Below, in pieces: positions 17,483 to 33,395 of a stretch of DNA of 64,000 bases. Position 1 is the first letter of the stretch; each line of letters starts with the position of its first letter. This stretch comes from Rufibacter roseolus (GTDB taxonomy: Bacteria; Bacteroidota; Bacteroidia; Cytophagales; Hymenobacteraceae), in the NCBI RefSeq assembly GCF_017916365.1, contig NZ_JAFMSU010000003.1, positions 124,001 through 188,000 on the forward strand, written 5' to 3'. The position numbers were made by a program, and so were the translations under genes. Under the pieces are notes generated by a model. That model saw only the letters and a program-made list of their open reading frames with translations, did not search any database and had not been told where the DNA came from.

Positions 17483-17532
17483 AGTAAGCAGTTCTTACCT
17501 TGGTCATTTGGAAAAAACTATTAAGTATGTTT

Positions 17533-17640
17533 GGCAGTGCAGTTCCGGTCATCCGACCTACGGTGGTTGTATGTCCGGAACTTTGACACTATACAAAGTA
17601 CCAATAACCGGAACAGCTCCTTATACACAGTAGTTGGCAG
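17533..17640 (+). other. Leader of cassette array 1 (attI-like candidate)
   Basis: This 108-bp segment matches 29713-29820 at 78 of 108 positions with no gap, by hand alignment. The match ends exactly at the first recombination-like box (GTTGGCAG here, GTTAGACG there). It contains a split inverted repeat, GTTCCGGT near its start and ACCGGAAC near its end. Both copies stand between a gene or gene remnant of the same family and the first cassette, the place of an attI or anchoring site. No integrase gene adjoins it. A degenerate attC of a lost cassette is the main alternative. Confidence 0.6.
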
Positions 17641-17651
17641 AAATTATAAGA

Positions 17652-18032
17652 ATGGAAGATTACTCTGAATTAGTCGGTGACAGCAGGATAGAAAAACTAT
17701 GTCATGACTTTAAATTGAAAACCATCATCTTCAACTTGACTCGGTACAGAGACGAATTAGAAGAAATAGAGGTAAGATTTGAAGGAGTAGTAAACCAAGA
17801 TTTTCAATGCATCGACAGCGATAACATTGTTTTCGGGATTGAAGAGACAGATTGGGACGGATTACAAATCCAGTTTCCTGATTTAATGAAATACTATAAG
17901 CATTACAAAAGCATTGACCCTGAAGATAGGAAAAGATTAGATAATGGAACTATAAAATGCTACCATATAAGAGGTTCTGTTGGGCTTGAAGGGTATGTAA
18001 TTGCAGAAGCTATAAGAATTACTGAAAAATAA
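17652..18032 (+). CDS. Cassette 1: small protein of unknown function
   Basis: A 126-residue acidic soluble protein (MEDYSELVGDSRIEKLCHDF onward, ending YVIAEAIRITEK). No family recognised; the predicted alternation of strands (TIIFNLTRYRDELEEIEVRF) suggests a small alpha/beta fold. I start it at the ATG of 17652. A TTG six codons upstream lies inside the R' box of the leader, so a start there is unlikely. It is the only gene of its cassette and is transcribed in the array direction. Confidence 0.7.
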   Translation: MEDYSELVGDSRIEKLCHDFKLKTIIFNLTRYRDELEEIEVRFEGVVNQDFQCIDSDNIVFGIEETDWDGLQIQFPDLMKYYKHYKSIDPEDRKRLDNGTIKCYHIRGSVGLEGYVIAEAIRITEK

Positions 18033-18035
18033 CAT

Positions 18036-18105
18036 CTGCCAACATTGTATAAACATCAAGCCACGGCCGACGGCCTTGCTCGTTGTTTATACGAGGCCGT
18101 TGGTG
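18036..18105 (+). repeat. attC-like site A
   Basis: R'' CTGCCAAC (18036-18043), L'' GTATAAAC (18047-18054), core with GGCCGACGGCC, L' GTTTATAC (18085-18092), R' GTTGGTG (18099-18105). L'' and L' are perfect complements and the outer CCAAC/GTTGG pair. Spacers are 3 nt (R''-L'') and 6 nt (L'-R'). R'' is the exact reverse complement of the start of its own cassette. Confidence 0.82.
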
Positions 18106-18184
18106 GTAATAAATAACATGAAATTATTATGGAAAATAGACAAAAAGTGAATCTATACTAAACAAGCTATTTCCCATAACCATA

Positions 18185-18823
18185 ATGAAAAAGATATTCT
18201 TTACCATAGTCCTTCTGCATCTTTATACATTCTCTTTCGGTTGCATGTGTACTAAAGCTCCTGAAACCACCTTGGAAGATTGGGAGAAAAGTGATTTAAT
18301 ACTTGTTGGAAAAGCAACGGAAATAATCGAAAACTCAAGGTTATTCGACAAAGATGGACAGCAACTAAGAATCATCAACTTCCAGATATTGGAGGGTTTT
18401 AAAAATATAGAGAAAGAGCAGAAAGTAATTTCTTTTGACTATTCAGACAATTCCTGTCAGTACACTTTTGAGGTTGGTAAAACATATGTGATTTACGGAC
18501 ATCAAATGCCCTCGGGACTTGCTTTTACTAATTCTTGCACCAACACCAAGAACCTTCCCAACAACTTCGCACAACTTCCAGCTATAAAAGAGTTAAGGGA
18601 AATTTCTAAAGAAAGGGACATCAAGCAGCCGAAGGGTGAAGCATTCGCAATGATTGAAACCTCTACTTTAGAAAAGCTCCAAAGAGATGGTAGCGAACTT
18701 GCAGAATCAAAGGATAGGATAAAGTACTTGTATTATGCTCTTGGCGTCTCAGCATTTTTTAACGTCATTTTAGCTATGCTGGCATATAAAAAAAGAAAAA
18801 TTACTACCCCCAACATTGTATAA
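18185..18823 (+). CDS. Cassette 2: lipoprotein-like protein with a C-terminal membrane anchor
   Basis: A 212-residue protein. The N-terminal signal ends in FSFGCMCTKAPE, which fits a lipobox; alternatively the early Cys pair could make a disulfide-bonded, TIMP/NTR-like domain (CMCTKAP, later CQYTF and NSCTNTKN). The middle resembles a small beta domain (DLILVGKATEI, KVISFDYSDNSCQYTFEVGK). A coiled segment and one membrane helix (YYALGVSAFFNVILAMLAY) precede a basic tail. Its stop codon lies inside the L'' box of site B, so the last five residues are encoded by the attC-like site. Function unknown. Confidence 0.78.
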   Translation: MKKIFFTIVLLHLYTFSFGCMCTKAPETTLEDWEKSDLILVGKATEIIENSRLFDKDGQQLRIINFQILEGFKNIEKEQKVISFDYSDNSCQYTFEVGKTYVIYGHQMPSGLAFTNSCTNTKNLPNNFAQLPAIKELREISKERDIKQPKGEAFAMIETSTLEKLQRDGSELAESKDRIKYLYYALGVSAFFNVILAMLAYKKRKITTPNIV

Positions 18824-18876
18824 ACACCATGCCACGGCCGACGGCCTTGCACGCTGTTTATACTAGCCCGTTCGTG
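18808..18876 (+). repeat. attC-like site B, overlapping the end of cassette 2
   Basis: R'' CCCCAAC (18808-18814), L'' GTATAAAC (18818-18825), core GGCCGACGGCC, L' GTTTATAC (18856-18863), R' GTTCGTG (18870-18876). The region ending in R'' matches the start of cassette 2 at 10 of 12 positions in reverse complement. The R' box has C instead of the purine expected at position 4. Confidence 0.8.
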
Positions 18877-18909
18877 GTAACCTTAAAATAAAAATCAAAT
18901 TTAAATTGA

Positions 18910-19380
18910 ATGAATACAAAGCCAAACCTAGAACAGCTCCTTGAAGCGGAAGACACGAACAGTAGTATTATCAAATTGGACGACTATATCTGCAAATTAT
19001 GCTCTTGGGGAGAAAAAATGGATGCCCTCTCCCAACCCCAAAAGTTGTTCTTCTTCAACCAAAACTTAGAAAGGGAGATAAACAACGGCGGATTCAATCA
19101 ATTCTATTACAATTCCTCGGGGGACTTTGCGCACCAGACTGTCGAATCCCTTAATGCGATCGGGGCAGACAAGACAGCTGAAATCCTGAAAAAAGCAAAC
19201 GGCCAGTTCCCAAACCAGACAGTTCCAAAGGATAGAGCGGAAAGACAAGAAATTGTAGAACAGATTGAGGAAGAGGCTAACGTGGTATGGGAGGAACTTG
19301 ACCAGCAATTCTTCGACTACGAAGATGACCTGAATTCATTAAACTTGGAATTTGTAAGAAAGAACAAAAGTTTCTTCTAA
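18910..19380 (+). CDS. Cassette 3: DUF4375 (DMP19-like) family protein
   Basis: A 156-residue acidic soluble protein. The block NQNLEREINNGGFNQFYYN is the family mark of DUF4375, followed by the usual SSGDFAHQTVESLNAIGA. The family's activity is not known to me; DMP19 names an unrelated-sounding DNA-mimic protein to which the domain has been linked. The gene fills its cassette, with an acidic C-terminus (DYEDDLNSLNLEFVRKN). Confidence 0.78.
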   Translation: MNTKPNLEQLLEAEDTNSSIIKLDDYICKLCSWGEKMDALSQPQKLFFFNQNLEREINNGGFNQFYYNSSGDFAHQTVESLNAIGADKTAEILKKANGQFPNQTVPKDRAERQEIVEQIEEEANVVWEELDQQFFDYEDDLNSLNLEFVRKNKSFF

Positions 19381-19400
19381 CTAAAAAGAAAAAGGGCTTC

Positions 19401-19470
19401 CACCAACGTCTAGTGTAACCGTCAGCCTTCGGCCGACGGCCTCACCCGCCGCTTACACTAGACGTTGGCA
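19401..19470 (+). repeat. attC-like site C
   Basis: The outer stem is nearly perfect over 17 bp: CCAACGTCTAGTGTAAC on the left, GCTTACACTAGACGTTGG on the right. The core holds GGCCGACGGCC. R'' is CACCAAC (19401-19407) and R' is GTTGGCA (19464-19470). The start of cassette 3 matches this R'' region at 8 of 10 positions. Confidence 0.8.
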
Positions 19471-19489
19471 AGATTATAAGATATTTAGA

Positions 19490-19935
19490 ATGAACTTTGG
19501 AATAGCGCAAAACTCAAATCTTTCAATAGATCAATCATCTTGGATTAATGATTTGTCAAATGAACTAAAGTTATTTTTTGAAGAAAAGAACTATGGAGAA
19601 GACTTGAACGAGCTTTATTTCGGACTAATTACAGTTAAACCAGAGTTTGACCAATTTTTTAGAAAAAAAAACCTAGATATTTATCTGGGGAGAAAAGTTC
19701 GTCTGTTGACGGAATAACGATCAAAACTATTAATTGCGCCGAAATAGATGTAAAGCTTGACTATTCTGAAGTATTTAAACTTGGACAAACAGAATTGATT
19801 GAGATAATTTGCAAAGCATTATTATCTAAAATTAGCTGTTTAACAAGGTTATCTAAACTAAAGAAATTTGATTTTACATTATTCAAGTCGGATTTAAAAG
19901 ATTATCTTATTAAACAATCTTATTTAAAAGGATAA
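19490..19935 (+). CDS. Cassette 4: hypothetical protein split by a frameshift at A AAA AAC
   Basis: The zero-frame product ends at 19717 after 75 residues. A nine-A run near 19663-19671 reads AAA AAA AAC in frame, which is a classic -1 slippery heptamer (A AAA AAC). In the -1 frame translation continues (PRYLSGEKSSSVDGITIK) to a stop at 19933-19935, giving about 148 residues; the extension looks genuinely coding, ending DYLIKQSYLKG. Programmed -1 frameshifting, polymerase slippage, a real indel or an A-count error in the data would all fit. No family recognised. The N-terminal half is acidic, the C-terminal half lysine-rich. Confidence 0.6.
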
Positions 19936-19945
19936 ATACTTTTGC

Positions 19946-20008
19946 CATCAACAGCTAAACGCCAGCATTGGCCTACGGCCTCATACGCTGTTTATACTTA
20001 CCGAAGTA
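19946..20008 (+). repeat. attC-like site D, degenerate right side
   Basis: R'' CATCAAC (19946-19952), partial L'' AGCTAAAC, core GGCCTACGGCC, and L' GTTTATAC (19990-19997) are present. The R' position holds GAAGTAC rather than GTTRRRY. This decayed site closes sub-array 1. Confidence 0.65.
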
Positions 20009-20155
20009 CGCCATTGTAAAATGGACCGGTTGCGAAATTCACATTTTTTGCTTGACCTACTTTAACGAAGGCAGCAGTCTTCAGCATCTACAACTGCACG
20101 TACTTTTTTGCGGTAAACTTGCTCAATAATAAATGGCCAGTTAATTCTAATAACC

Positions 20156-21070
20156 TCAGTTTGGAACGGGAAGATTTTCTAAACTGCCAATCTCAAGCTT
20201 ATATCCTTTGCCGCGTATAGCAGCAATTTTGATAGTTGGATCAGGTTCCAGTTTCTTTCTAAGTTTTGAAATGAACATATCCAGACTGCGGCCTACTATA
20301 ACCCCCTCATCTTCCCATATTTCCTTTTGTAACCGGCTCCGCTCTATTATCTCATTAGGTGACAGCGCAAAAATGCGTAGTACGCGGGTTTCAGTCTTGG
20401 TTAAGTCCAGGGAATTTCCATGTATCACAAGTTTACGAGCCTCCGCGTCGAACGACATCGACCCCAAAGGGATTATACCGGTAGGCTGACTGGCAGGTAA
20501 GGTCTTCCGCGGCTTAGCAGATCCTATTAAAATAAAGCCAACAAAGGCTAAAACTGTCAGGCTGCCCAGAAGATATCCATTCTTTGCTGTGATTATTCCT
20601 TGCGGTTTGAATTTGATGCTAATCTTGTAACACGCTACGGGTTGCCTTCTTCCTATACAGGCTACAATATCTTCTTTCTTATTTTTTGATATAGCGTATC
20701 CATAGGCTACACTAGCATTGGCACAGTTCAGTACATTAACCACATAATCACTTGTGAGCGGGTCTTGGGCTAACAAACGCTGAGTAGTATTCACCAAGGA
20801 TTCAGGCTGAAAAGAAAAGGCATTCTCAAAACTGATCAGGTATTCATTTCCAGCGATCTTTTTTACCGGTAGTACCCGTGATACACTGTCGCCCGACTGC
20901 AAGAGTATTTCATGTCCGATCCGGCGAAGTAAAACCTCCCTTCTAGCAAAGTCATAGTCATCATTGCCCGCCATGCTGAAAGCCACGCAGATTATCGAAA
21001 TAAACATGAGTAGTAACAACCCGCCCAGGTGCTTTCGATTGACGGGCAAGGGATTTCTTCTAACAGGCAT
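20156..21070 (-). CDS. Membrane-anchored winged-helix transcription regulator
   Basis: Residues 15-35 form a signal anchor, 36-164 an extracytoplasmic domain with three cysteines (NCANAS, VACIG, PVACYK), 165-183 a second membrane helix, and 200-293 an OmpR/PhoB-type winged helix (LDLTKTETRVLRIFALSPNE, VIVGRSLDMFISKLRKKLEP, IAAIRGKGYKLEIG). The protein would sense outside the membrane and bind DNA directly, as ToxR and CadC do, but with the DNA-binding domain at the C-terminus. It diverges from the secreted-protein gene at 21253, a plausible target. No kinase or receiver domain is present. Confidence 0.85.
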   Translation of the reverse strand: MPVRRNPLPVNRKHLGGLLLLMFISIICVAFSMAGNDDYDFARREVLLRRIGHEILLQSGDSVSRVLPVKKIAGNEYLISFENAFSFQPESLVNTTQRLLAQDPLTSDYVVNVLNCANASVAYGYAISKNKKEDIVACIGRRQPVACYKISIKFKPQGIITAKNGYLLGSLTVLAFVGFILIGSAKPRKTLPASQPTGIIPLGSMSFDAEARKLVIHGNSLDLTKTETRVLRIFALSPNEIIERSRLQKEIWEDEGVIVGRSLDMFISKLRKKLEPDPTIKIAAIRGKGYKLEIGSLENLPVPN

Positions 21071-21252
21071 GATGTCAAGATATTATTTACAAAGTTTACA
21101 TTCTTATTTACGAACCAAGTCCCTGAGGCTGAAATAAATCAACGTATTTTTATTGCACCAACTTCAAGAGGATTCGAAAAATAAACGAAAAGCCTTAAAC
21201 GAATCTGATGTATCAGGAGAGGGGTCTATGTTAATTAAAACTACAACGAATT

Positions 21253-21792
21253 ATGAAAAAGGTTATGTATGCGCTGATCTTACCGCTGGTGGTGGTAAGC
21301 GGACTAGTATTCGCCAATCGCGAAAACAAAAACGAAACTTCCAAAAGACCAACCCCCAAGCCGCTCTCTGCTGCTGAAAGGGAGGCCGCATTGAAAAAAT
21401 GGGAGGCTACCCCTGAAGGTATCATGTACAAAAAATGGGAAGCGTCTCCTGCTGGGGAAAAAGTGTTTGCCAGTGAGGCTAAAATAAGAAAATCCCTTAG
21501 AGATTATACCAATATGGAGGGAGTGATAACCTCTCTTTCTCTTCCGCAAGGCTCACGATTAGGTTTTGGAGTGATGGTCAGGATTAATGGTGACGATTAT
21601 ATTCTCAATTTTGAGCCAGAAAAGTCTCAACTTGAGCAATTGCTTAGCCTGAAAGTGAACGACAAAATAATTATCAAAAGCCGTACCGTATCACATGCGC
21701 CCAAGTATTCCTATCCAATTGTGCGGGGCGACTATGTAGAACGCGATGGTAAAGTTATTTATCAACGTATCCCTCGCAAAGGCGGTTGCTGA
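21253..21792 (+). CDS. Secreted protein of unknown function
   Basis: A 179-residue protein with a clear signal peptide (MKKVMYALILPLVVVSGLVFA). The mature part starts with a lysine/proline-rich linker and a repeated block KKWEATPEG / KKWEASPAG eleven residues apart. A compact beta-rich region follows (MEGVITSLSLP, GVMVRINGDDYILNF, VNDKIIIKSRTV), perhaps an OB-like fold. Divergent with the membrane-bound regulator at 20156-21070, 182 bp away. Confidence 0.75.
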   Translation: MKKVMYALILPLVVVSGLVFANRENKNETSKRPTPKPLSAAEREAALKKWEATPEGIMYKKWEASPAGEKVFASEAKIRKSLRDYTNMEGVITSLSLPQGSRLGFGVMVRINGDDYILNFEPEKSQLEQLLSLKVNDKIIIKSRTVSHAPKYSYPIVRGDYVERDGKVIYQRIPRKGGC

Positions 21793-22246
21793 GTAAATTT
21801 ATGATAAAAGACCTTTACTGAATTTAAAGGTAAAGAGAGTCATGAATTACTTTTTCAGCCGGCACTTTTAAGAGGACATATTGCTTCAGGCTGTACATTT
21901 TTCGGCAAAAACAAGCGGCTGATATTTTTACCCGGTGGACTTTTATTTTAGATTTTAAAAGTAAAATTTAAACAGATTAACCATAAGTTAATCCTGAAGA
22001 AAGAAAAACAGCGGTTTACATCTAAAGATTATGGCAGCACGTCAAGGGATCAACTTAATACCACTATTTTGATTTTGCGGTTAATTGAACTTGGCTTTTC
22101 TTCAGATACCACAAACTTTAACGATCTTCTGCTGCGGCCCTTACAAGTACTAACCATTTTAAAGGTGTACCTTAGCCGAACCAATTCTCACCAATGAAAG
22201 ATGTTTCCTGGAAGAGTACATCTTAAAAGTTTTTAATTCTTAATTA
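21793..22246. other. Non-coding gap
   Basis: AT-rich, with no convincing gene. A weak inverted repeat (AAAGACCTTTACTGAATTTAA region, not listed in full) follows the upstream stop. I see no RNA gene and no clear promoter. Confidence 0.5.
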
Positions 22247-22741
22247 ATGAGTGATTCAACCAATATCTGTTTGTCTTGTGGACTATGTTGTGACGGTACC
22301 GTGATTGGTTTTGTACAGGTTGGTTGTGAAGAGCTGCCCTTGTTGAGAGATGTAATAGATATTGAGAATACCAATGGGGATGGTTTCTTTCTTCAACCTT
22401 GTAAAAAATATTGCGATGGTTGTACTATCTACTCTAGAAGGCCGAAACAGTGCGCCAGCTTTGAGTGTGGAATTCTAAAATCAATTGAAAAACAGGAATT
22501 AGACTTTGATTCAGCCCTTGATATCATTAACGTAGTTAAACAAAAGAAATTTACTATAGAAAGAGAGTTGGCAGTACAGCAATTTAATCTACAATCCCAG
22601 TCGTTTTACTTTAAAATGGGAGAAGTTAAAAAGCTGTTTCAAAAAAAATCTCCTGATTTAGCGTTAACACCAAGCCAACTAAATTTAATTGAGGAAATCA
22701 AGCAACTTGACAATCTACTGGCAAACGAGTTTGATGTCTAA
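22247..22741 (+). CDS. YkgJ-family cysteine-cluster protein
   Basis: A 164-residue soluble protein with eight N-terminal cysteines in the pattern of the YkgJ/UPF0153 group: CLSCGLCCDG near residue 9, then CKKYCDGCTIYSRRPKQCASFECG around residues 50-73. Such proteins are thought to bind zinc or an Fe-S cluster; the biochemical role is unknown. The C-terminal half is helical (FDSALDIINVVKQKKFTIER). Its last codons form the left arm of a perfect palindrome. Confidence 0.85.
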   Translation: MSDSTNICLSCGLCCDGTVIGFVQVGCEELPLLRDVIDIENTNGDGFFLQPCKKYCDGCTIYSRRPKQCASFECGILKSIEKQELDFDSALDIINVVKQKKFTIERELAVQQFNLQSQSFYFKMGEVKKLFQKKSPDLALTPSQLNLIEEIKQLDNLLANEFDV

Positions 22742-22765
22742 AAATTTTTAGACATCAAACTCGTT
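22724..22765. terminator. Perfect 42-bp palindrome across the stop codon
   Basis: Two 21-bp arms meet at AAAAATTTTT with no mismatch. The left arm encodes the last residues and stop (TTT GAT GTC TAA) of the YkgJ-type gene. The 3' part supplies TTTTT on either strand, so it could act as a bidirectional terminator between this gene and the convergent cytochrome gene, though the T-run lies inside the palindrome rather than after it. Confidence 0.65.
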
Positions 22766-22834
22766 AAATATCATTGATAAACTACGATAAACCAGCTGCT
22801 ACCCATGAGCTGTAGAGACTGGGTAATAAGCTAG

Positions 22835-25153
22835 TTATAAGGCATTCAACTCTCCCATGGTGAATGCTTTCTGCCTGCCTTTGTACACTTTGCGAGCCTG
22901 CTCCACATCTGCTGTCTCTATTTTTCCGGCATTGTTGTTCCAGGACTTCCTGATAAAGCTTAACAGTTCGGCTATATTCTTATCAGACAAAGCCTTGTTG
23001 TGGCCAATGCCGGGCATCTCACCAATAACATCCGGGGTTTGGTAAAGCATTCCATTTACTTTGACGGGGCCGGTCATGCCATACAGGACAATGGGTATCA
23101 ACTTGCTTTTGCTGCCGGTTACCCAGTTAGAGTTATTCAGAGGCGGCGCCAGGCGCTTTACGCCATTGCCATCTGCCCCGTGGCAGGACTGGCAGGTGGA
23201 GGTATACAGTTTGGCACCCACAGGAAATTCCTTTGCCAGCAGTTCAGGATTTTTACTGCGCTTTGCTTTACGCATATCTTTCAACACTTCTCCCAGCCGC
23301 ACGTGTAGCACAGAACTTGTATCCTTGGCAGCCATGGCTTTGTGATAGAATACCTCTTCCCTGCCCTGCATACTGCTGATGGCGGCATCGGCCACATATT
23401 TGTTACCAGGATACTTCTTTACAACCGCCTGCACCAGTCTGTCGGCAGCAGGCCTATTGAACTGACGGATACTGGGTGCCAGAAAGGCCACATACGGGGC
23501 CGCAAGCGAGTCATGTTGTGCGACAAGTTGCCCAAGTGCCTTCACAAACGTGGTGTAGTTCTTTGCCGTCATAACGGAAGGCAATACACTTAGGGCCTGC
23601 ATCCTGATAGACCATTGTGCCTGTTTAAGCAGGGGCAGTACGTCTTCGTACCGCAAGGCATTCATTCCTTCTAGGACCCACAGCGCATGAGCGGCCGCTA
23701 CCGGTTGCGTTGTCTCTTTCAGGAGCTGACGCAAGGCAGGGACAGCCTGCGGATACTTTTTATCTACCAGCAACTGCTGTGCTTTGTCACGCACCCATCC
23801 GTTTTCATGCTGTAGCAGCTCTACCAGTTGTACCGGGGCATGCGGCACCACCACCGGTTTAGCTTCTTTTTTTGCTGGAACAATCCTGTATATGCGCCCA
23901 CAGGTGATAGGTTGTTCCAGTTTCCTTTGGGCTATCTCATTCGCCAGGTAGTCGGTTAGGTAGAATTTATGCTGTATCACACCCCGATACATATCCAGCA
24001 CATACAAACCACCATCGGGACCGTCGTACAGGTTGACGGGCCGGAAACGCTCATCTGTGCTTGCCAGGAACTCACGACCTTCGTAAGCCTGTGCGCCCCG
24101 CATTTGGTATCCATTTTCTGTTAGGATGTTGCGTTTGATCAGGTTAGCAGCCGGCTCAGCTACAAAAGCGTTTTGGGAGTACTTTTCTCCAAACAACCCG
24201 CCCCGGTAAATAACTGGTCCGCAGGCCGCGGTGAAGTTTACCAGGCGCAGTTTTTTGTCTAAAATGCCCTCCTGATAGCCCCGATTTACCCCGGTGGTAG
24301 CCCTGGCCGGATATACCCTGTTGTTGCCTACCAAGTCCACATCAAAGCCTGCCACCGTCTGTTGGTTCGCGTTAGTGGCTCCCATGCCCGGGGCGAAACA
24401 ATCGCCTAACAGGTTTTGGGAGTTGTTGTTGTAATAAAGCCTGCCATGATCATCCTGGGCAATGCCCCACTGGCCCCTGAAATGCGTTTTCTCAATAAGC
24501 CACTTATCTCCTTTTTTACGGTAGCGCTTGGTGAATTTGGCGCTGTAGATCCAGTTATCCATGGCACGCAGCAGTCCGTTCGGTTCATGCTCCACATTGC
24601 CGCCCTGGGTGTATTTATTATCTACCAGGGTCTTTTTGCCGGACTTGTCCTGCTTTCTTTCATAATACCACAGGTTGGGCGGCATGGCCACCAGCAAGCC
24701 ATCTTCTATCAGGCAGAGCGCCCGTGGCAACACCAGAGAGTCCAGGAATACTTTGCGGTCATCAAATTTCCCATCTCCGTTCTTGTCTTCCAGAATGACA
24801 ATCTTGCCCGTGGGCAGTTCTTCGCCGGTGCCTGCTGTATCGGGCATGTAGTTCTGCATTTCTGCTACCCACATGCGGCCTTTCTCATCAAAGGTCATGG
24901 CTACGGGCGAATTGATTAGGGGCTCTGCTGCCACTAGTTCTACCATAAATCCCTCCTCTACCTGCATCTTCTTCAGCGATTCTTCCGGCGACAACACAGG
25001 CGAGGAAGCATACATCTCCCTTATTTTAACTGAGTCTGTTTCAATTTGCTCCCCTCCCTCCTGCACAACCTGATTATTACTGTTCGGCTGACAAGCCTGC
25101 AACATGCCTGCACAGGTGATGGTCAACAAGGCACTATAAATAAAACTTTTCAT
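22835..25153 (-). CDS. PmbD-type dehydrogenase/c-type cytochrome lipoprotein
   Basis: A 772-residue secreted lipoprotein (lipobox GMLQACQPN). The N-terminal half is a six-bladed sugar-dehydrogenase-like propeller of the 'putative membrane-bound dehydrogenase' type (VAMTFDEKGRMWVAEMQNY, ILEDKNGDGKFDDRKVF, DGPDGGLYVLDMYRG). A HEAT-like helical stretch follows (VPALRQLLKETTQP). The C-terminus is a cytochrome c domain with haem motif CQSCH at about residue 654 and a likely axial Met in GEMPGIGH. Likely a periplasmic electron acceptor or sugar-binding oxidoreductase for the keto-sugar cluster that follows at higher coordinates on the same strand. Confidence 0.88.
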   Translation of the reverse strand: MKSFIYSALLTITCAGMLQACQPNSNNQVVQEGGEQIETDSVKIREMYASSPVLSPEESLKKMQVEEGFMVELVAAEPLINSPVAMTFDEKGRMWVAEMQNYMPDTAGTGEELPTGKIVILEDKNGDGKFDDRKVFLDSLVLPRALCLIEDGLLVAMPPNLWYYERKQDKSGKKTLVDNKYTQGGNVEHEPNGLLRAMDNWIYSAKFTKRYRKKGDKWLIEKTHFRGQWGIAQDDHGRLYYNNNSQNLLGDCFAPGMGATNANQQTVAGFDVDLVGNNRVYPARATTGVNRGYQEGILDKKLRLVNFTAACGPVIYRGGLFGEKYSQNAFVAEPAANLIKRNILTENGYQMRGAQAYEGREFLASTDERFRPVNLYDGPDGGLYVLDMYRGVIQHKFYLTDYLANEIAQRKLEQPITCGRIYRIVPAKKEAKPVVVPHAPVQLVELLQHENGWVRDKAQQLLVDKKYPQAVPALRQLLKETTQPVAAAHALWVLEGMNALRYEDVLPLLKQAQWSIRMQALSVLPSVMTAKNYTTFVKALGQLVAQHDSLAAPYVAFLAPSIRQFNRPAADRLVQAVVKKYPGNKYVADAAISSMQGREEVFYHKAMAAKDTSSVLHVRLGEVLKDMRKAKRSKNPELLAKEFPVGAKLYTSTCQSCHGADGNGVKRLAPPLNNSNWVTGSKSKLIPIVLYGMTGPVKVNGMLYQTPDVIGEMPGIGHNKALSDKNIAELLSFIRKSWNNNAGKIETADVEQARKVYKGRQKAFTMGELNAL

Positions 25154-25176
25154 GCGGTACTGCTACTTTCCTAATA

Positions 25177-25227
25177 CAGATGGTGCGGTGCCTGCTAAAT
25201 TGCACATAGCAGGCACCGCACCATCTG
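25177..25227. repeat. Perfect 21-bp stem hairpin with 9-nt loop
   Basis: CAGATGGTGCGGTGCCTGC and its exact complement flank AATTGCACA (arms 25177-25197 and 25207-25227). It lies 24 bp upstream of the cytochrome start, between it and the PmoA-like pseudogene. No T-run follows on the minus strand. It may be a dispersed mobile repeat or a processing hairpin. Confidence 0.8.
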
Positions 25228-25290
25228 GTAGTGAACATGATACTGATACTTGATTTTACTTTTTACCTATGAACTTTTGGTACTTAATAT

Positions 25291-25524: not shown

Positions 25525-25600
25525 ATGCCTTCAGGTTTGTAGAACCTAATCCGGCTGCAGCCTTAGGAGCCGGTAATATGTTGCCTCTTCTAAAATTGAA

Positions 25601-26953: not shown

Positions 26954-27029
26954 AGGTATTGCTGATTTATGTTTTGATTTTACAGGTTATTCAGGATGAG
27001 ATAGCACCTTCAACTAGTGCTAATGCTGA

Positions 27030-27500
27030 TTAATACTCGTTGTTTATTTCCAGCCAGTAGCCGTCCGGGTCCTGGATGTAAATCTGCTTCACGCCGTCGG
27101 TCCGCACATTTACCTTATCGGGCTCCCCCTTTGAGTTGTAGTACCTGATGTTGTGTTTTCGTATGCGCTCCATGAAGGCATCAAGCGAGGGCACGCTGAA
27201 ACAAAAATGGCGGGTGATGTCCTGGTAAATCTCTTTTGGTGCGCCTTGTATCAGGTGGAGCTGGTAAGGGTCGCCTATGCTGAACCAGTCGTGCAGACCG
27301 TCTTTGAAAGGCTCCGGAATCTTTTTGAACTGCATCACCTGCTCGTAAAAAGCAGAGCTCTTTTTCAGGTCGTGCACGTGCAAAGCAAGGTGGTTGAATC
27401 TGATGGCGGGTTTCTCTGTAGCAGCTGTGGTCTGTGCCTGCGCAGGAGTTAGTTGGGTCATAAATAAGCCAATTAATAAGAACTTGAGAAGTAGTTTCAT
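27030..27500 (-). CDS. Exported VOC (glyoxalase/bleomycin-resistance fold) protein
   Basis: A 156-residue protein with a signal peptide (LLIGLFMTQLTPAQAQ) and one VOC domain: FNHLALHVHDLKKSSAFYEQ near the start and IQDPDGYWLEINNEY at the end. His and Glu of these blocks are the usual metal ligands. The substrate is unknown; position in the cluster suggests action on a keto-sugar or aldehyde intermediate outside the cytoplasm. Confidence 0.88.
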   Translation of the reverse strand: MKLLLKFLLIGLFMTQLTPAQAQTTAATEKPAIRFNHLALHVHDLKKSSAFYEQVMQFKKIPEPFKDGLHDWFSIGDPYQLHLIQGAPKEIYQDITRHFCFSVPSLDAFMERIRKHNIRYYNSKGEPDKVNVRTDGVKQIYIQDPDGYWLEINNEY

Positions 27501-27556
27501 ATGGTAGAGGGGTAAGCTTCCTGTCAGGAAACCCTATTCTGAAGTTCTGTTATGTT

Positions 27557-28357
27557 TTACTTCGTATTCAGATTCAGAAGTTTGATGTTGCGGTAACGCA
27601 CTTCATCGCCGTGGTCCTGTAGCAGGATGTGGCCTTGGGGCGCTTCCCCAAATGCTTCAAACTTCTGGTACTTGCTGGCAGCCACCAAATCTCTGAACTC
27701 CTGGCTACCCCGCTCATACTCCACCACCTTCACCCCATTCAGCCAGTGCTCCACGTGTTTGTTGTTTGACACAATGCGAACTTTGTTCCACTCGCCAATG
27801 GGCATTACTTTTTTGTTTCGGGCAGTAATCAGGTCATATAGTGAGCCAATGGTGCGGTTGCCGTCTTTTCCCATTTTTGCATCGGGGTGCAGGTCGTCGT
27901 CCAAAATCTGGAACTCCAGGCCAATGGCAGAGCCCGGGCTTTTAGGCAGGCGCTCCGTTACAAAGTACTTGACGCCGCTGTTGGCGCCCGGGGTTAATTT
28001 TGCCTCAAGGGTCAGTTCAAAGTTGTCGTACTGCTGCTCTGTGATAATGTCGCCTCCGTTCCTGGATTCTCCGCCCCCCGATTTGAGGACGACCAGTTCT
28101 CCGTTTTCTATCTTCCAGCCTTGCTCCGGGAAGCCATCTTTGTAGGCTCCTCGCCAGCCTTTGGTTGTTTTGCCGTCAAAGAGCAACTTCCAGCCTGCCT
28201 TTTTTTCCTTTTCTGTTAGGGTGTTATGGCTTTCAGGTGCTGTCATTCCTTCAGCAGTAGAAGTTGCACTTGCTGTCATCTGCTGCTGGCTATTGCAGGC
28301 TACTACCGTTCCAATTGCCATAGCGCTTATTAATATGTTTATTCTTAAGTTTTTCAT
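27557..28357 (-). CDS. DUF1080 (3-keto-disaccharide hydrolase-like) lipoprotein
   Basis: A 266-residue protein with lipobox TVVACNSQQ. The DUF1080 concanavalin-like jelly roll opens with WKLLFDGKTTKGWRG and includes NFELTLEAKLTPGANSGVKY, FQILDDDLHPDA and GHILLQDHGDEVRYRNIKL. Members of this family have been shown to cleave or hydrate 3-keto glycosides after oxidation by a Gfo/Idh/MocA partner. Both partner types are present here. Confidence 0.9.
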   Translation of the reverse strand: MKNLRINILISAMAIGTVVACNSQQQMTASATSTAEGMTAPESHNTLTEKEKKAGWKLLFDGKTTKGWRGAYKDGFPEQGWKIENGELVVLKSGGGESRNGGDIITEQQYDNFELTLEAKLTPGANSGVKYFVTERLPKSPGSAIGLEFQILDDDLHPDAKMGKDGNRTIGSLYDLITARNKKVMPIGEWNKVRIVSNNKHVEHWLNGVKVVEYERGSQEFRDLVAASKYQKFEAFGEAPQGHILLQDHGDEVRYRNIKLLNLNTK

Positions 28358-28381
28358 TTATGGCCTGTTTTACAGAAATCA

Positions 28382-29296
28382 TTAAACTTTTACTCCTTTA
28401 GACTTCAGGTACGCATGGCTGATTTTAGCACATTCCAGCGGCGTCTTGTCCTTCTCAGGCACCGCATCTAACTCGATGATTCCCCAGCCTTTGAATTTGA
28501 TTTCCTGAAGGGCCGCCAGCACATTTGGCAGGTTTACCTCTCCCTGTCCAAGTTCCACAAATTTGTACGCCTTGGGTCCTGCTTCCGGGGTCTGCCGCAC
28601 GTCTTTCAGGTGCAAGGCCTTTATCCTGCTTTTATATTGTTTGATGGCCGCTTCCGGATTTCCTCCCCCCTGTTGGTAATGGGCGATATCCAGCAGTAGG
28701 TTCACATACTTTTCATCACAACTATCCATAATAACCGCTATCTCCTCAGGTGTTTCCCCTAGCTGGTGCATGTGGTTATGGTAGACTGTCTGTACACCCA
28801 GGTCGAGCGTACGCTTGCCTATTTCGTTTAATAGGCGGCCATAGCTTTTCAGGTCGGCCGTGCTGGGAGCACCTTCTTTGGGACGTGAGGAATTGGTAAC
28901 CTGCAGCAACTGGCCTCCTAGTTTCTTGATGAATCTGGCATTATTAAGATGCTGTTCAATCACCTCATTATCGTTGCCCGTGTTGATATTGGCATTCCCG
29001 CTGGAGAACATGCACAGTTCCAGTTTATACGTTTTGAGAAGTTCCAGCAGGGCATCTGGTTTTTCACCGTACTCCTTCAGAATAGTAGAACGCAACTGTA
29101 TTCCTTTAAAGCCCAGAGAAGAAATATCTTTAATGGCCTGTACATCATTCCCACCCCAGGTAATAGAGGCATACCCTACTTTCAAACCCGGCACCGAAAC
29201 TGATCCGGCACTGCCTATAAAGGACAAAGCCGGAAGTGCCAGCGCTGCCACTCCTGCTCTTACAATAAACTCTCTGCGCGAGATTTCTGAAGCCAT
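28382..29296 (-). CDS. Sugar phosphate isomerase/epimerase, twin-arginine exported
   Basis: A xylose-isomerase-like TIM barrel of about 304 residues (AP endonuclease 2 superfamily). The twin-arginine signal is SRREFIVRAGVAALALPALS. Barrel motifs include GFKGIQLR, TVYHNHMHQLGETPEE, VNLLLDIAHYQQGGG and WGIIELDAVPEKDKTP; His, Asp and Glu of these bind the metal. I use the ATG at 29296; one three codons upstream (29305) is equally open. It is the first gene of the minus-strand cluster and probably isomerises a keto sugar. Confidence 0.88.
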   Translation of the reverse strand: MASEISRREFIVRAGVAALALPALSFIGSAGSVSVPGLKVGYASITWGGNDVQAIKDISSLGFKGIQLRSTILKEYGEKPDALLELLKTYKLELCMFSSGNANINTGNDNEVIEQHLNNARFIKKLGGQLLQVTNSSRPKEGAPSTADLKSYGRLLNEIGKRTLDLGVQTVYHNHMHQLGETPEEIAVIMDSCDEKYVNLLLDIAHYQQGGGNPEAAIKQYKSRIKALHLKDVRQTPEAGPKAYKFVELGQGEVNLPNVLAALQEIKFKGWGIIELDAVPEKDKTPLECAKISHAYLKSKGVKV

Positions 29297-29305
29297 AAAA
29301 TTCAA

Positions 29306-29467
29306 GGAAATAGTTGCGTGAACGAACTAACAAAAGCGGGTATAACTACAAACCGCAGTTATACCCTTGAATATAGTAAAACAACAGGAGCGGACAATAG
29401 GAAGTGACCATCTTTGAGAATCAGCTATATCAGGAGCATTTCCCCTTTCCAGTTAAAGGATGCTAAT
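29306..29467. other. Gap before the gene-end remnant
   Basis: No gene seen. It should hold the minus-strand promoter of the keto-sugar cluster. A short inverted repeat (ACTGCGGTTTG-like pair around 29342-29362) is not convincing. Confidence 0.4.
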
Positions 29468-29619
29468 ATTACCCTCAAAAAAATGCTGATCGTCATTCCC
29501 CAAAGTCCTTCGGGCGGCGTTCTTTCCTTTTAATAGGCATTATTTCCTGGCTGGAGAGCAAGATGGAGAATATACTGGCCTTGGAGATCATGCACCGCAA
29601 AGCCGCCAAGTTGAAGTAG
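29468..29619 (+). pseudogene. Decayed copy of the 3' end of the 515-residue gene
   Basis: It encodes ITLKKMLIV, then after frame damage IISWLESKMENILALEIM and HRKAAKLK-stop. The intact gene at 15891-17438 ends ITLKEKLIAI..., IISWLESKIENVPVQEIM, KRKAGRLK. Homology carries on past the stop through the REP-like element into the array leader. So the whole gene-end plus leader unit was duplicated, or the rest of a second gene copy was lost. Confidence 0.85.
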
Positions 29620-29624
29620 AGATA

Positions 29625-29662
29625 CGTTTCAGGTCTGTTTTAGGCAAAGTAGGCCAGAAACG
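29625..29662. repeat. REP-like nested palindrome after remnant 1
   Basis: CGTTTCAGGTCTGTTTTAGG, then CAAAGTAGGCCAGAAACG. Same position relative to the gene end as the copy at 17443-17482. Confidence 0.75.
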
Positions 29663-29712
29663 AGGTTGGCGGTTCTTTCCTTTGTTATTAGGAAAGACTA
29701 TATCGTATATTC

Positions 29713-29820
29713 GGCAGTGCAGTTCCGGTTATCGGATCAACGGTAGGTGGATAAACGGAAGTTTGGCTCCCTACATAGGGCAATTAACCGGAATTGTTCT
29801 GTTTATACAGTAGTTAGACG
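29713..29820 (+). other. Leader of cassette array 2 (attI-like candidate)
   Basis: Counterpart of 17533-17640: same length, about 72% identical without gaps, with blocks GGCAGTGCAGTTCCGGT, TAACCGGA and CAGTAGTT kept. It ends with GTTTATAC (29801-29808) and the box GTTAGACG (29813-29820), which fits the integron consensus GTTRRRY. Confidence 0.62.
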
Positions 29821-29825
29821 TAATT

Positions 29826-30428
29826 ATGAAAACAGTCATCACTACACTAATTGCGTTTATGTTTTATGGCTGTTCAGGCATTGCTAACATCAATCAGAAG
29901 ATATATGATGCGCAACTTAAGGCAATTGAGCAATCCCCATATAAAAGTGCTAATGGAAAAAGCCCTTTCTTAAAAGTACAAAGGGAGTATCGTTTGAATA
30001 GGTCTCTACCGCTTATTGAAGGTAAGCTTAAAGAAATTTCAAACATTAACGACACGCTCTGGATGACCGAATACTTCGATGCAACTTGCTGGGATTGCCC
30101 GAGTACCGTTACGAACCTAATGCTTAGAGACACTGTCTACACCGTAACCTGGGAAATCTTGGGGCATAAGGGTGGGGCAACGTACAATGTTGAGGTTAAT
30201 CCCTTTCACGGTCTCTCAAGGGATTTGCGACAGGAGCCTAGCGAACTTGTTGAGATTGTGGAAAAAACTAGGGATGGAGAGCCTTTGACAAGGAATCCGC
30301 TTCAATATGGTGATGATAATTGCAATGATGGCGGATACACCATCGCAACAGTTATTTATCCAGACAGGAAAATTGAGGCCATATATGTTCGCTGTTGGCT
30401 ACCTTTATCTCTAAGAAAATTAAAATAA
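29826..30428 (+). CDS. Cassette 5: lipoprotein of unknown function
   Basis: A 200-residue protein with a signal peptide and lipobox FMFYGCSGIAN. Two further cysteine groups (FDATCWDCPS, DDNCNDGG) suggest metal or disulfide binding. No family recognised. The ATG lies 6 bp after the leader box, so no room exists for a promoter of its own; transcription must come from upstream, typical of cassette genes. Confidence 0.75.
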   Translation: MKTVITTLIAFMFYGCSGIANINQKIYDAQLKAIEQSPYKSANGKSPFLKVQREYRLNRSLPLIEGKLKEISNINDTLWMTEYFDATCWDCPSTVTNLMLRDTVYTVTWEILGHKGGATYNVEVNPFHGLSRDLRQEPSELVEIVEKTRDGEPLTRNPLQYGDDNCNDGGYTIATVIYPDRKIEAIYVRCWLPLSLRKLK

Positions 30429-30431
30429 CTT

Positions 30432-30500
30432 CGTCTAACATTGCATAAACGACAGCCTCGGCCGACGGCCTCCACCGCCGTTTATACTAGACCGTTAGCG
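30432..30500 (+). repeat. attC-like site E
   Basis: R'' CGTCTAAC (30432-30439), L'' GCATAAAC (30443-30450), core GGCCGACGGCC, L' GTTTATAC (30480-30487), R' GTTAGCG (30494-30500). R'' is the exact 8-base complement of the start of cassette 5 (GTTAGACG) and clearly differs from the neighbouring R' box. Confidence 0.85.
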
Positions 30501-30530
30501 GTAAGTTAAAATTTCAAAATTGAAAAAAAT

Positions 30531-31019
30531 ATGAAATACCAGCTCCCATTCTTCGATGAATTAGACCTCAGTAAGCTAGAAGAATACTATGAAATTGACA
30601 TTGAATTTGAAGGAAGAACAATTCAGATTGATTTGAACTTTGAAAATACCAGCATCGGGGTAGAAAAGCTTGACCTAATCAATAAGCAACTATCCGACAT
30701 TGAAAGTTTAAACCTAGAGAACAGAAAAGAAATAAACAAAGACTTTCAAGAAGGCGGGAATGTTGAGTTCTACGTTGACGAAATCCTGGAACAACTGGAT
30801 GATGATTTGGAAGAGATTTTAGCAGAAGCCGAATCATCTAAATCAAAGAAGGAACAGGTTCTGGAAGTTGTAAAACTAAAGAGAATCGGATTTTACCCAG
30901 AAGTTGAGAATGCGGGAATTGTTTCCGACTACACGATTAGCGAAGAACTTACAGATGACCTCGTGGTCGTGTGCAGAAAACTTGATAGAACCTTTGACGG
31001 CATCTCAATAGAAAGTTAA
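30531..31019 (+). CDS. Cassette 6: DUF2004-like acidic protein
   Basis: A 162-residue soluble acidic protein. An N-terminal beta segment (YYEIDIEFEGRTIQIDLNFE) precedes a helical middle (EFYVDEILEQLDDDLEEILA). The C-terminal part, RIGFYPEVENAGIVSDYTIS and EELTDDLVVVCRKLD, resembles DUF2004 proteins, several of which sit beside polymorphic toxins; the match is from memory. Single gene of its cassette. Confidence 0.72.
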   Translation: MKYQLPFFDELDLSKLEEYYEIDIEFEGRTIQIDLNFENTSIGVEKLDLINKQLSDIESLNLENRKEINKDFQEGGNVEFYVDEILEQLDDDLEEILAEAESSKSKKEQVLEVVKLKRIGFYPEVENAGIVSDYTISEELTDDLVVVCRKLDRTFDGISIES

Positions 31020-31037
31020 AAAAGAAAGAAAACCTAC

Positions 31038-31106
31038 CGCTAACATTGTGCAAACACCATGCTTCGGCCTACGGCCTCGCACGCTGTTTGCACGAGGCCG
31101 TTGATG
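31038..31106 (+). repeat. attC-like site F
   Basis: R'' CGCTAAC (31038-31044), L'' GTGCAAAC (31048-31055), core GGCCTACGGCC, L' GTTTGCAC (31086-31093), R' GTTGATG (31100-31106). L'' and L' changed together relative to other sites (GTGCAAAC/GTTTGCAC instead of GTATAAAC/GTTTATAC), a compensatory change that supports a functional stem. The R'' region matches the cassette 6 start at 10 of 11 positions. Confidence 0.85.
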
Positions 31107-31130
31107 GCAAGCATGAAAATGAATACTTAA

Positions 31131-31655
31131 ATGAAAGTCGGCTTTGACAATATCAGAGATTTCACAATTCCTTTGGAGCAGTTCACTATGAGCTGGCGGT
31201 TCATGGAAGAAAATTTCGATAAGATGCCCGATTTGCATCTGGAACAGCTGAAGCCGTTGAATGAGGATGCTTCTGAATTTCTTTGGAAGTTCATTCAGGG
31301 CAATAAGCTTCATGAAGACGCACCGTTTAAAAAAGGTCTCTTTAGGAATCTTGACAAAGCTGAAGTTAGAGAAGGTAACCAGAAAGAAGTAAAAAGATGG
31401 CTTTTCTAACGTGGTATTCCATTCGGAAAAGAGGATTTTCTTTCCTGGCAACCATCAGAAGCGATGATAGTACCTTGGAAACTTCTAATAAAATATTTTG
31501 ACAGCTTCTATTACCCGATTTCAGACGACCTAACTGTAATTGACGATAGCCTAAATTGGGCATTGCTGTTCTTTCATGAACATGAAATCTACTTCGGGAC
31601 TAATAAGGATTTTAAACCAAGCAGCATTTTTGAAGAATATGATAGCATTTGGTAA
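31131..31655 (+). pseudogene. Cassette 7: one gene broken by an in-frame TAA
   Basis: The reading frame opens MKVGFDNIRDFTIPLEQF and runs 92 codons to TAA at 31407-31409, then stays open in the same frame (RGIPFGKEDFLSWQPSEAMI, then LTVIDDSLNWALLFFHEHEI) to 31655. Without the stop it would encode about 174 residues. The second half resembles the DUF2947 type, which I name with low certainty. A nonsense mutation is likeliest; stop read-through is less likely. Confidence 0.68.
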
Positions 31656-31677
31656 AAAATAAATAAAAAAAATTTTC

Positions 31678-31740
31678 CACCAACAAGTTGTAAACGTCAG
31701 CTCGTTCGACGGCCTCGCCCCCTTACAATAAACTTTATAT
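31678..31740 (+). repeat. attC-like site G, degenerate right side
   Basis: R'' CACCAAC (31678-31684), L'' TTGTAAAC (31688-31695), shortened core CGACGGCC, L' CTTACAAT (31722-31729). R' is not recognisable. R'' region matches the cassette 7 start at 9 of 12 positions. Confidence 0.65.
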
Positions 31741-31758
31741 GGTATTGATAGAACAAAA

Positions 31759-32154
31759 ATGAAAAGCTTTATTCCAAAATACTCCATAGGAACATACCTG
31801 TATTATCCACTGACCATAGGAGTGTCATTTTGGTTGATCAAGGGAGCCTTGGATAGCTATCAGAATGGAAAAATTGCCTTGTATACAGTGATTTTCTTTA
31901 TTGCTGTAGGCCTTATTCTGCTTTCTTGGATTTACCTTTTTACAAAAAACAAATTTAGCACCATTGATTTTCATGAAGATGCATTAGTTTTTACAAATGT
32001 TTTAGGAACAGTAACAAAGGTTAAAAATGAAGAAATAAGAAATATTACTTCTTTGGGGATAAGGACCAAAACTCAAATTATGCCGATCTCCTTTTACTTC
32101 ATGGACAATAATTCTGAATTGTACTTCTGTTTGGAAGAATGGAGAAATAATTGA
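31759..32154 (+). CDS. Cassette 8: small membrane protein
   Basis: A 131-residue protein with two membrane helices (YYPLTIGVSFWLIKGAL, and YTVIFFIAVGLILLSWIYLF), then a cytoplasmic beta-rich tail (STIDFHEDALVFTNVLGTVT) reminiscent of a bacterial PH-like domain. It ends in LEEWRNN, perhaps shortened. No family named. The next 87 bp contain no clear attC-like site. Confidence 0.65.
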   Translation: MKSFIPKYSIGTYLYYPLTIGVSFWLIKGALDSYQNGKIALYTVIFFIAVGLILLSWIYLFTKNKFSTIDFHEDALVFTNVLGTVTKVKNEEIRNITSLGIRTKTQIMPISFYFMDNNSELYFCLEEWRNN

Positions 32155-32241
32155 ATAAAATAAGAATACCACCACCAAATATAATATATACAGAACCCTT
32201 GATTCGCAGCAGGGATTGCAATGAACGATATACTTTAATAC

Positions 32242-32799
32242 ATGAGAAAAGTAATTGCCGCAATAAACATGACGCTTGACGGGGTTTGCGACCATACAGC
32301 GGGTATCCCCGATGAAGATTTACATCAACATTATGCCGAGCTTCTGGACAATGCGGAAGTTATATTATATGGACGGACAACTTACCAGCTTATGCAATTC
32401 TGGCAAACGCTGTTAAAAAATCCTTCAGGTCAGAAATCAATGGACGACTTCGCTTTAGCAATAGACAGAGTACCAAAAATCGTTTTTTCGCAGACCTTGA
32501 AGAATACCGAATGGGACAGTGCGAAACTTGCAACAAAAGAAATTGAAAAGGAGGTTTTAGAACTCAAACAACAATCTGAATCAGGCAAAGATATTTTAGT
32601 TGGCAGCCGGAGTTTAATTATTCAGCTTATGAACCTTAATCTAATTGATGAGTTCCAGCTTTGTATTCACCCAATGATAGAAGGAAAAGGTCTGCCGTTG
32701 TTTGATAAAATAAAAAACAGGACAACTTTTAACCTTTTAAAAACCAAAACCTTTGATTCAGGCGCAATCCTCCTCTATTACAAACCGAAACAACAGTAA
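32242..32799 (+). CDS. Cassette 9: dihydrofolate reductase-like (RibD C-terminal fold) protein
   Basis: A 185-residue protein opening RKVIAAINMTLDGVCDHTAG, with EVILYGRTTYQLM, GKDILVGSRSLIIQLMNLNL, FQLCIHPMIEGKGLPLFD and a C-terminal strand GAILLYYKPK. These are marks of the RibD_C/DHFR-like reductase family (YyaP/YwjB type); an NADPH-dependent reductase is expected, substrate unknown. It is not the DfrA or DfrB type of resistance cassettes. The gene is complete. Confidence 0.85.
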   Translation: MRKVIAAINMTLDGVCDHTAGIPDEDLHQHYAELLDNAEVILYGRTTYQLMQFWQTLLKNPSGQKSMDDFALAIDRVPKIVFSQTLKNTEWDSAKLATKEIEKEVLELKQQSESGKDILVGSRSLIIQLMNLNLIDEFQLCIHPMIEGKGLPLFDKIKNRTTFNLLKTKTFDSGAILLYYKPKQQ

Positions 32800-32805
32800 A
32801 CAACG

Positions 32806-32860
32806 AACTGCTAATAATACACCATGCCACGACGACGGCCTCTCACGTCTCACGCACAAG
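32806..32860 (+). repeat. attC-like site, strongly degenerate
   Basis: The core ACACCATGCCACGACGACGG followed by CCTCTCACG clearly matches the core of site B, but L'', L' and R' are lost. It is read as a dead site after cassette 9. Confidence 0.5.
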
Positions 32861-32886
32861 ATCGCTATAATTAAAAAACAAACTCC

Positions 32887-33351
32887 ATGGAAATCAACAA
32901 ATTAAACCAGAGGCCAGACCTTGGGGAAAATACCAGAGAAAGCAAAGCGTACCTTCAGTTTGAGAAACTTCTAAGTGAATTATCAAAAAGGAATTTACCC
33001 GATGAAGTTCTGTCTTCCATCAATAAGGAGATAGGGGAAATAAACTCAATTTCTGTTTCTGGATCTATTTTGACAAAAGAGGTCAAAAAAAGGCAAACAA
33101 GTATTCTCAAATTAGTTGAAAAGGAACTCAAGTTGGTGCCCAAAGCACATTACCGCAACATGGGGCTCGCAGGGGGTATGTCTGCCATTGGGCTCCCAAT
33201 TGGGGTTGTTTTTGGATTGACGCTTGGGAACATGGCTTTTCTGGGCTTAGGACTTCCCATAGGACTGGCCATTGGTAGTGCCGTTGGTGCGGGAATGGAC
33301 AAAAAGGCCTTTGAAGAAGGAAGACAACTAGATGTAGAAATCAAATACTAA
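32887..33351 (+). CDS. Cassette 10: protein with a glycine-zipper membrane segment
   Basis: A 154-residue protein. The first 85 residues are helical and charged (LQFEKLLSELSKRNLPDEVL). The C-terminal part is a glycine-rich hydrophobic region (GLAGGMSAIGLPIGVVFGLT, then LGLGLPIGLAIGSAVGAGMD) that could form one or two membrane helices or a pore-like zipper. Function unknown. A possible last, weak attC-like remnant follows at 33352-33395 (GTTTAAGC facing GCTAAAC). Confidence 0.68.
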   Translation: MEINKLNQRPDLGENTRESKAYLQFEKLLSELSKRNLPDEVLSSINKEIGEINSISVSGSILTKEVKKRQTSILKLVEKELKLVPKAHYRNMGLAGGMSAIGLPIGVVFGLTLGNMAFLGLGLPIGLAIGSAVGAGMDKKAFEEGRQLDVEIKY

Positions 33352-33395
33352 GCACAACATTGTTTAAGCGCATTGCGGGCTAAACAACTGAGCTT

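Follow-up and report, generated by a model that had tools for sequence, protein, structure and literature searches.

What sort of element are the small genes and repeated sites found in two parts of a 64,000-nucleotide (nt) stretch of Rufibacter roseolus DNA, and which enzyme works them? The stretch, G000:C3:124001-188000 of a 5.5 Mb genome and called the window here, had been predicted from its letters alone to carry integron-type cassettes between positions 17633 and 33395, each a single small gene followed by an attC-type site. Our reading, to which we give a probability of about 0.85, is that these are integron-type gene-cassette arrays worked by a linked tyrosine recombinase that is free of the I2 insertion of integron integrases (IntI) and serves many attI platforms. 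On the sequence evidence the arrays very likely work like an integron; by the insertion tested, the system is not an IntI integron. The integron-type label thus stands for the mode of working and not for strict membership, since the linked recombinase has no IntI insertion and falls outside the IntI clade.

Sites A to F are strong, site G is weaker (E 0.0012), and all seven lie where the original prediction placed them, in a single orientation. Its faint sites fared unevenly: G is matched by a covariance model, while a degraded site and a degraded terminal one farther along are visible by eye and go unreported by the models. The sites are real, and the single stretch proposed is in fact two arrays, 17634-about 20004 and 29814-about 33395, split by ordinary minus-strand genes, the second array being partly decayed (frame 31131-31655, for example, is broken). 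Both are headed by the same type of leader, a promoter-like box plus an attI-like core, which the earlier reading had not mentioned.

A covariance model built from sites A-F and searched against the whole genome gave 49 matches at E<=1e-3, representing 48 distinct places, 42 of them unused in model building; these numbers exclude a chance origin of the sites, and they supply the further copies that the prediction proposed looking for elsewhere in the genome. At E<=1 there are 54 distinct matches, 51 in eleven multi-site arrays (grouped by strand) and three as single sites. All 11 opposite-strand matches of the model overlap the same places as other matches, so no array mixes orientations; the isolated, randomly oriented sites expected of intergenic repeats are not what the genome holds. 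Cassette intervals have a median of 620 bp and a mean GC of 0.38, against 0.50 for the window, and their longest open reading frame (ORF) runs forward in 45 of 48, in keeping with the claim that each site follows one small, AT-rich gene; the script used for this underestimates some intervals, missing for example the 162-amino-acid (aa) ORF at 30531-31019. Tandem single-gene cassettes in the same orientation, each with an attC-like end site, are an integron feature. Nine window and ten other cassette proteins yielded three above the Pfam cut-off (DMP19, RibD_C and DUF6756), DUF6756 being the only one from the ten others, for which PADLOC gave one weak match.

The two ends of an integron cassette were once one site, so the expected partner of R'' is the R' at the start of the cassette it belongs to, rather than the adjoining R'. 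Both partners were available for 45 of the 54 sites, and five variable positions were scored. Own cassette ends are complementary at 4.51 of these 5 positions and in-place (neighbouring) ends at 2.33; own-end pairing is better in 41 sites, worse in 2 and equal in 2, and none of 20,000 shuffles reached the own-end value. Leaders and first cassettes also agree: in each of the 8 leaders all 8 positions match. Within a cassette, R'' and R' are thus complementary, with crossover at G/TT, as in integrons.

When folded by computer, the bottom strand is more stable than the top at 41 of 43 sites, which bears out a check suggested with the prediction. The named structure has a covariation of 0.280; with shuffling the value is 0.152, and slid pairings do not exceed 0.094. 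Of its 23 pairs, 18 show changes on both sides. Among the 43 folded sites, 26 have an L stem without any internal unpaired base, 7 have one such base on each arm, 3 have one on the R''-L'' arm alone and 7 fold irregularly; hence an extrahelical base on the R''-L'' arm, an integron feature, is absent from most. A purine-purine mismatch lies just inside the L stem in 38 of the 43, and the spacers are asymmetric, at 5-6 versus 3 nt.

Cassettes turn over between kept flanks. In G012, of the same genus, the TPR gene that adjoins array 1 has 94.6% DNA identity and four downstream genes have 88-94%; the leader and the last site, the region of terminal site D, are kept, two other cassettes stand between them, and the window's four array 1 cassettes have no match at that locus. 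A conserved order of the genes between the sites, another mark of plain repeats, is therefore not seen. At the TPR locus of G006 the recombinase itself is present with a long array; in seven other genomes no site is reported in this stretch. When 7.2 kb of the recombinase's own array were compared with 59 genomes, cassettes were found elsewhere at 66-94% identity. Nine of the 14 matches of at least 420 nt start within 4 nt of the inferred crossover (chance, 1.7% of positions), and the other five begin 36-62 nt earlier, within the preceding site; taking rows of 359 nt or more the figure is 9 of 16, and an earlier comparison of 13 rows had 8 starts near a boundary. In most cross-genome rows one cassette matches alone, and in G012 two cassettes occur in the same order with other sequence replacing the one between. 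A comparison of the genome's cassettes with other recombinase loci had given two weak partial matches outside the genome itself before the genome search found these. By sequence comparison, then, cassettes are exchanged in nature, as those of integrons are.

The recombinase gene (C2:1476378-1477844, 489 aa) lies directly upstream of one array. Its closest named relatives are on an R. tibetensis plasmid (77.5%) and in R. latericius (78%). It matches XerA-type and IntI proteins; 4a8e and 5hxy are the best PDB sequence matches, and IntI4 is among the best structural matches. The catalytic residues R, K, H and R are present in 79 of 79 relatives and Y in 78. Boxes I and II are 89-90 residues apart in all 79, a pattern-based count agreeing, compared with 131-136 in 21 of 22 IntI (123 in the remaining one) and 94-96 in 7 of 7 Xer proteins; by this spacing the additional domain specific to IntI (I2, around patch III) is missing from all 79 relatives. 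The protein scores 206 bits with TIGR02249, below the cut-off of 265, and its genome has no TIGR02249 match over that cut-off. In a tree from which L061, L013, L163, L118 and L135 were dropped as duplicates or fragments, and for which L155 and L159-L162 had no usable ORF, IntI form a clade with support 1.0 and the Bacteroidia recombinases lie outside it in a separate one. The best Foldseek matches are tyrosine recombinases and are uninformative on the N-terminal region (about residues 1-210); this region seems not to be required, because Flavobacterium matches begin at query residue 196 or later. In the L111 recombinase, residues 10-179 are modelled as two similar beta-beta-alpha units, and the N-terminal region of the homologue in the R. 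roseolus genome has no Pfam family.

How closely recombinase and sites go together was counted in 148 genomes with a second model, R2, made from 43 sites after 11 weak or odd ones of the 54 had been removed by hand and specific to this site type. R2 matched 60 genomes, none of them from genera g5 or g6 (36 of the 148); the highest site number per genome reads as at least 32. Taking a close homologue as E<=1e-100 and sites as at least five, in a table compiled by hand, both occur in 46 genomes, a homologue without sites in none, and neither in 94. At the Rufibacter and Pontibacter loci (L111-L120), R2 sites are present in nine of ten, all 43 of them downstream of the recombinase and in the same direction; the tenth locus is a 4-kb contig without an R2 match. 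A mobilizable R. tibetensis plasmid carrying traM also has the recombinase followed by seven same-direction sites (L163, NZ_CP012644.1, 20001-26797).

Flavobacterium saccharophilum and Tangfeifania have the same layout with other, longer sites, and F. geliluteum has part of it. A de novo attC finder applied to L111-L162 was too noisy for distant loci, and a repeat search and an attI end test were used instead. In its strict form the test looked 70-170 nt behind the gene for an attI-like GTT whose sequence agrees exactly, over 9 nt, with the end of a later cassette. Short downstream sequence or the lack of an ORF removed 15 of 52 loci; 11 of the remaining 37 passed, where 0.53 were expected. 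The eleven consist of one Pontibacter, four Flavobacterium (of which one is a metagenome-assembled genome, MAG), Tangfeifania, Rhabdobacter and four more MAGs, from other Bacteroidota. A first version requiring 10-nt matches was passed by 10 of 36 loci and, in an upstream control, by 2 of 36; L118 and L152, two of the ten, look accidental.

Eight of the eleven arrays in the genome start with a copy of the window leader. One copy stands behind the recombinase gene; it keeps the attI-like core and not the upstream part, and has no promoter-like box. An attI-like core adjoining the integrase gene, as here and in the 11 loci of the strict test, is an integron feature. Of 19 leaders from this genome and related ones, 17 were aligned, the script's pattern having missed the other two; in most of them conservation begins at CTATATAGTATATTCGG, runs through a predicted hairpin and ends at GTAGTT. 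CTATATAGTATATTCGG resembles the Bacteroidota -7 box TAnnTTTG. Among 16 genomes, leader copies at E<=1e-6 number 8 in this one, 9 in G012, 6 in G004 and 1-3 in six others, with none in seven. The hairpin, TTCCGTTTATC..GATAAACGGAA, whose half-stems are similar to the L boxes, is predicted in the 17 leaders (for example window 17543-17582); the copy behind the recombinase gene shows none. Leader modules seem to have spread together with neighbouring gene ends, since leader 2 (window 29507-29620) contains a diverged copy of the 3'-terminal part of the TPR gene lying beside leader 1 (window 17326-17438). The leaders at C2:473k and C2:493k have another upstream stretch in common.

Sites, orientation, end complementarity, strand bias, covariation, turnover and linkage to the recombinase are all observed; several results nevertheless weigh against the reading built on them. 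In-place ends pair slightly above chance, 71 of 20,000 shuffles reaching their value. Folds were made for this site type alone, the canonical attC bulge being known from literature description. The 148 genomes are related, so that the 46 of 46 linkage is not independent; eight of them have sites without a close recombinase homologue (8 of the 102 that lack a close one), and in 28 further genomes, where the relative is more distant (E about 1e-54 to 1e-89), R2 matched 0-3 times. R2 has no match to the Flavobacterium sites and one weak match in Tangfeifania (E 0.0075), and sameness there therefore rests on layout and end complementarity. The strict attI test failed in 26 of 37 loci. Nine of the ten loci from Rufibacter and Pontibacter are among these failures, and yet sites are present at eight of the nine. 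The Bacteroidia clade has a support of 0.657, the seven Xer proteins do not form a clade and the tree is midpoint-rooted. Of the 14 long matches, just 2 stop no more than 5 nt from a cassette boundary.

The arrays could instead be relics (CALIN-like, that is, like clusters of attC sites lacking integron integrases) built by a canonical IntI, plasmid-borne or since lost, with the linked recombinase as a passenger. Such an origin would account for the eight genomes that have sites and no close homologue and for the decay of array 2, and IntI does exist in the phylum sample, over cut-off in 105 of 395 genomes. Of these 105, however, one is labelled same class or nearer (the same-class share of the 395 is not stated) and the R. 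roseolus genome has none over the cut-off; a canonical IntI now at work was dropped as a candidate. The passenger role also fits poorly with a recombinase that stands directly upstream of arrays in several lineages, with end matches in 11 of 37 loci, that in 148 genomes never occurs as a close homologue without sites, and whose sites mostly have no bulge for IntI to read. We consider this history improbable. More improbable still is that this is simply a canonical integron from a lineage with poor sampling: the R''-L''-L'-R' plan, the GTT motif, the bottom-strand bias, the attI-like core, the cassettes and the structural match to IntI4 speak for it, and against it are the absence of the insertion in 79 of 79 relatives, the well-supported separate clade of IntI, L stems mostly without the one-base bulge and eight attI-like leaders in one genome.

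That the cassettes are immobile, the sites being plain repeats scattered between genes or RNA hairpins at gene ends, is hardly credible. They are indeed hairpins after genes, and three matches are single sites; repeats of that kind would pair within the site, whereas the observed ends pair across the cassette, and the cassette-end test contradicts the idea, which was dropped. Turnover between kept flanks and long matches that begin at the crossover speak against it too, and an Rfam scan of the window gave no family match.

On the preferred reading, of integron-type arrays with an I2-free enzyme, we infer that the linked recombinase is the catalyst, its substrate single-stranded, the leaders attI sites used in trans and the box a promoter. 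The recombinase would pair two folded bottom-strand attC-like sites, recombine them at G/TT and free a cassette circle; the circle would be inserted at an attI core, behind the recombinase's own gene or at one of the seven other leader copies, where the promoter-like box would drive the newest cassette first. Candidates for what avoids an abortive second cut without I2 are the asymmetric spacers and the purine mismatch.

Sedentary chromosomal integrons (IntI, attI, attC) have cassette arrays, R''-L''-L'-R' sites, the GTT crossover motif, the bottom-strand bias and an attI-like core in common with the system described here; the latter differs in its recombinase without IntI insertion, its mostly bulge-free L stems and its several attI-like platforms in one genome. 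The compact catalytic domain without insertion is shared with archaeal XerA and bacterial Xer proteins (4a8e, 5hxy, 1a0p). Xer proteins resolve chromosome dimers; the Bacteroidia recombinases, unlike them, head cassette arrays. Treponema integrons likewise have an integrase transcribed toward attI and cassettes in the same direction, although they use IntI, and each integron is described as having one attI, in contrast to the several platforms here (PMC3607928). The insertion is given as a defining IntI feature (PMC9668308) and reads the extrahelical bases of attC (PMC4792948); gain of the I2 helix is held to have moved integron integrases from double- to single-strand recombination (PMC7790495). 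Passages of PMC8138268 call it essential for integron function, report an 'integron-like' tyrosine recombinase subgroup in which it is not fully conserved, as it is likewise absent here, and describe no Bacteroidia arrays. Integrons have been reported for Bacteroidota (PMC8618304, PMC2426708), and for Bacteroidetes IntegronFinder 2.0 lists a single complete one, that of Salinibacter (PMC9024848). In the open-licence literature, preprints excluded, we found no description of cassette arrays with an insertion-free recombinase in Bacteroidia.

With the insertion absent from 79 of 79 relatives and the bulge from most of 43 folds, the system lacks the protein part (I2) and, for the most part, the DNA feature it reads, and still cassettes turn over; the order of the two events, called a chicken-egg paradox (PMC4792948), becomes directly testable. 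On balance we lean towards the view that Bacteroidia evolved, or kept from before the gain of I2, a complete integron with bulge-free folded attC, an I2-free recombinase and one enzyme serving many chromosomal attI-promoter platforms, which would be either a missing intermediate or a second invention. The system bears on how gene-collecting systems and integrons arose, and points to a large overlooked cassette pool, its recombinase falling below the TIGR02249 cut-off.

Table 1. Features of the two arrays and the adjoining gene (window positions).
Feature	Position	Strand	Basis
Leader 1: promoter-like box TATGTTTG, predicted hairpin, attI-like core ending CTTATACACAGTAG/TT	17524..17633	+	17-leader alignment, conservation ends at GTAGTT; own-genome copies
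Leader 1, inferred crossover	between 17633 and 17634	+	leader alignment
Array 1 cassette 1: 132-aa ORF 17634-18032, no Pfam family; site A 18033-18108	17634..18099	+	
Array 1 cassette 2: 212-aa ORF 18185-18823; site B 18804-18879	18100..18870	+	
Array 1 cassette 3: 156-aa DMP19-family ORF 18910-19380; site C 19397-19473	18871..19464	+	
Array 1 cassette 4: 75-aa ORF 19490-19717, probably decayed; terminal site D 19939-20013, R' degraded	19465..20004	+	
Leader 2: degenerate copy of TPR gene 3' end, promoter-like box, attI-like core	29507..29813	+	
Leader 2, inferred crossover	29813/29814	+	
Array 2 cassette 1: 200-aa ORF 29826-30428; site E 30429-30503	29814..30494	+	
Array 2 cassette 2: 162-aa ORF 30531-31019; site F 31034-31109	30495..31100	+	
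Array 2 cassette 3: broken frame 31131-31655; weak site G 31674-31744 (E 0.0012)	31101..31744	+	
Array 2 decayed tail: ORFs 31759-32154, 32242-32799 (RibD_C), 32887-33351	31745..33395	+	
Array 2 degraded sites	near 32800-32870 and 33343-33395	+	by eye, no model match
TPR-repeat gene adjoining array 1, outside the array	15891..17438	+	in 14/16 Rufibacter genomes

Relatives of the recombinase and attI-like sequences also occur in other settings. On an Acinetobacter baylyi plasmid (L198, NZ_CP104735.1, 2967-4988) a recombinase whose C-terminal part is about 51% identical to this family stops about 190 nt short of tet(X3). An attI-like GTTATGTGCC can be made out by eye between the two genes, and GGCTACTAAC after tet(X3), with 7 of 10 positions complementary; an exact comparison of the ends, treating tet(X3) as a cassette, gave no match reaching 8 nt. 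The arrangement is suggestive of tet(X3) as a former cassette, and the adjoining recombinase offers a lead on how tet(X3) travelled. On a Chryseobacterium plasmid (L199, NZ_CP041688.1, 8786-8990) an attI-like GTTGGGAAAAATCG is followed directly by the inverse CGATTTTTCCCAAC, as if by a geneless cassette. G093 has eight matches of near-equal score to a related recombinase, with ORFs of 297-326 aa, probably a transposon. Behind the recombinase relative of Flavobacterium covae (L154) a tandem repeat of about 157 nt occurs eleven times, and a direct repeat at 99%, with a spacing of 923 nt, three times, the repeats lying at 11287-13023 and 17571-19718.

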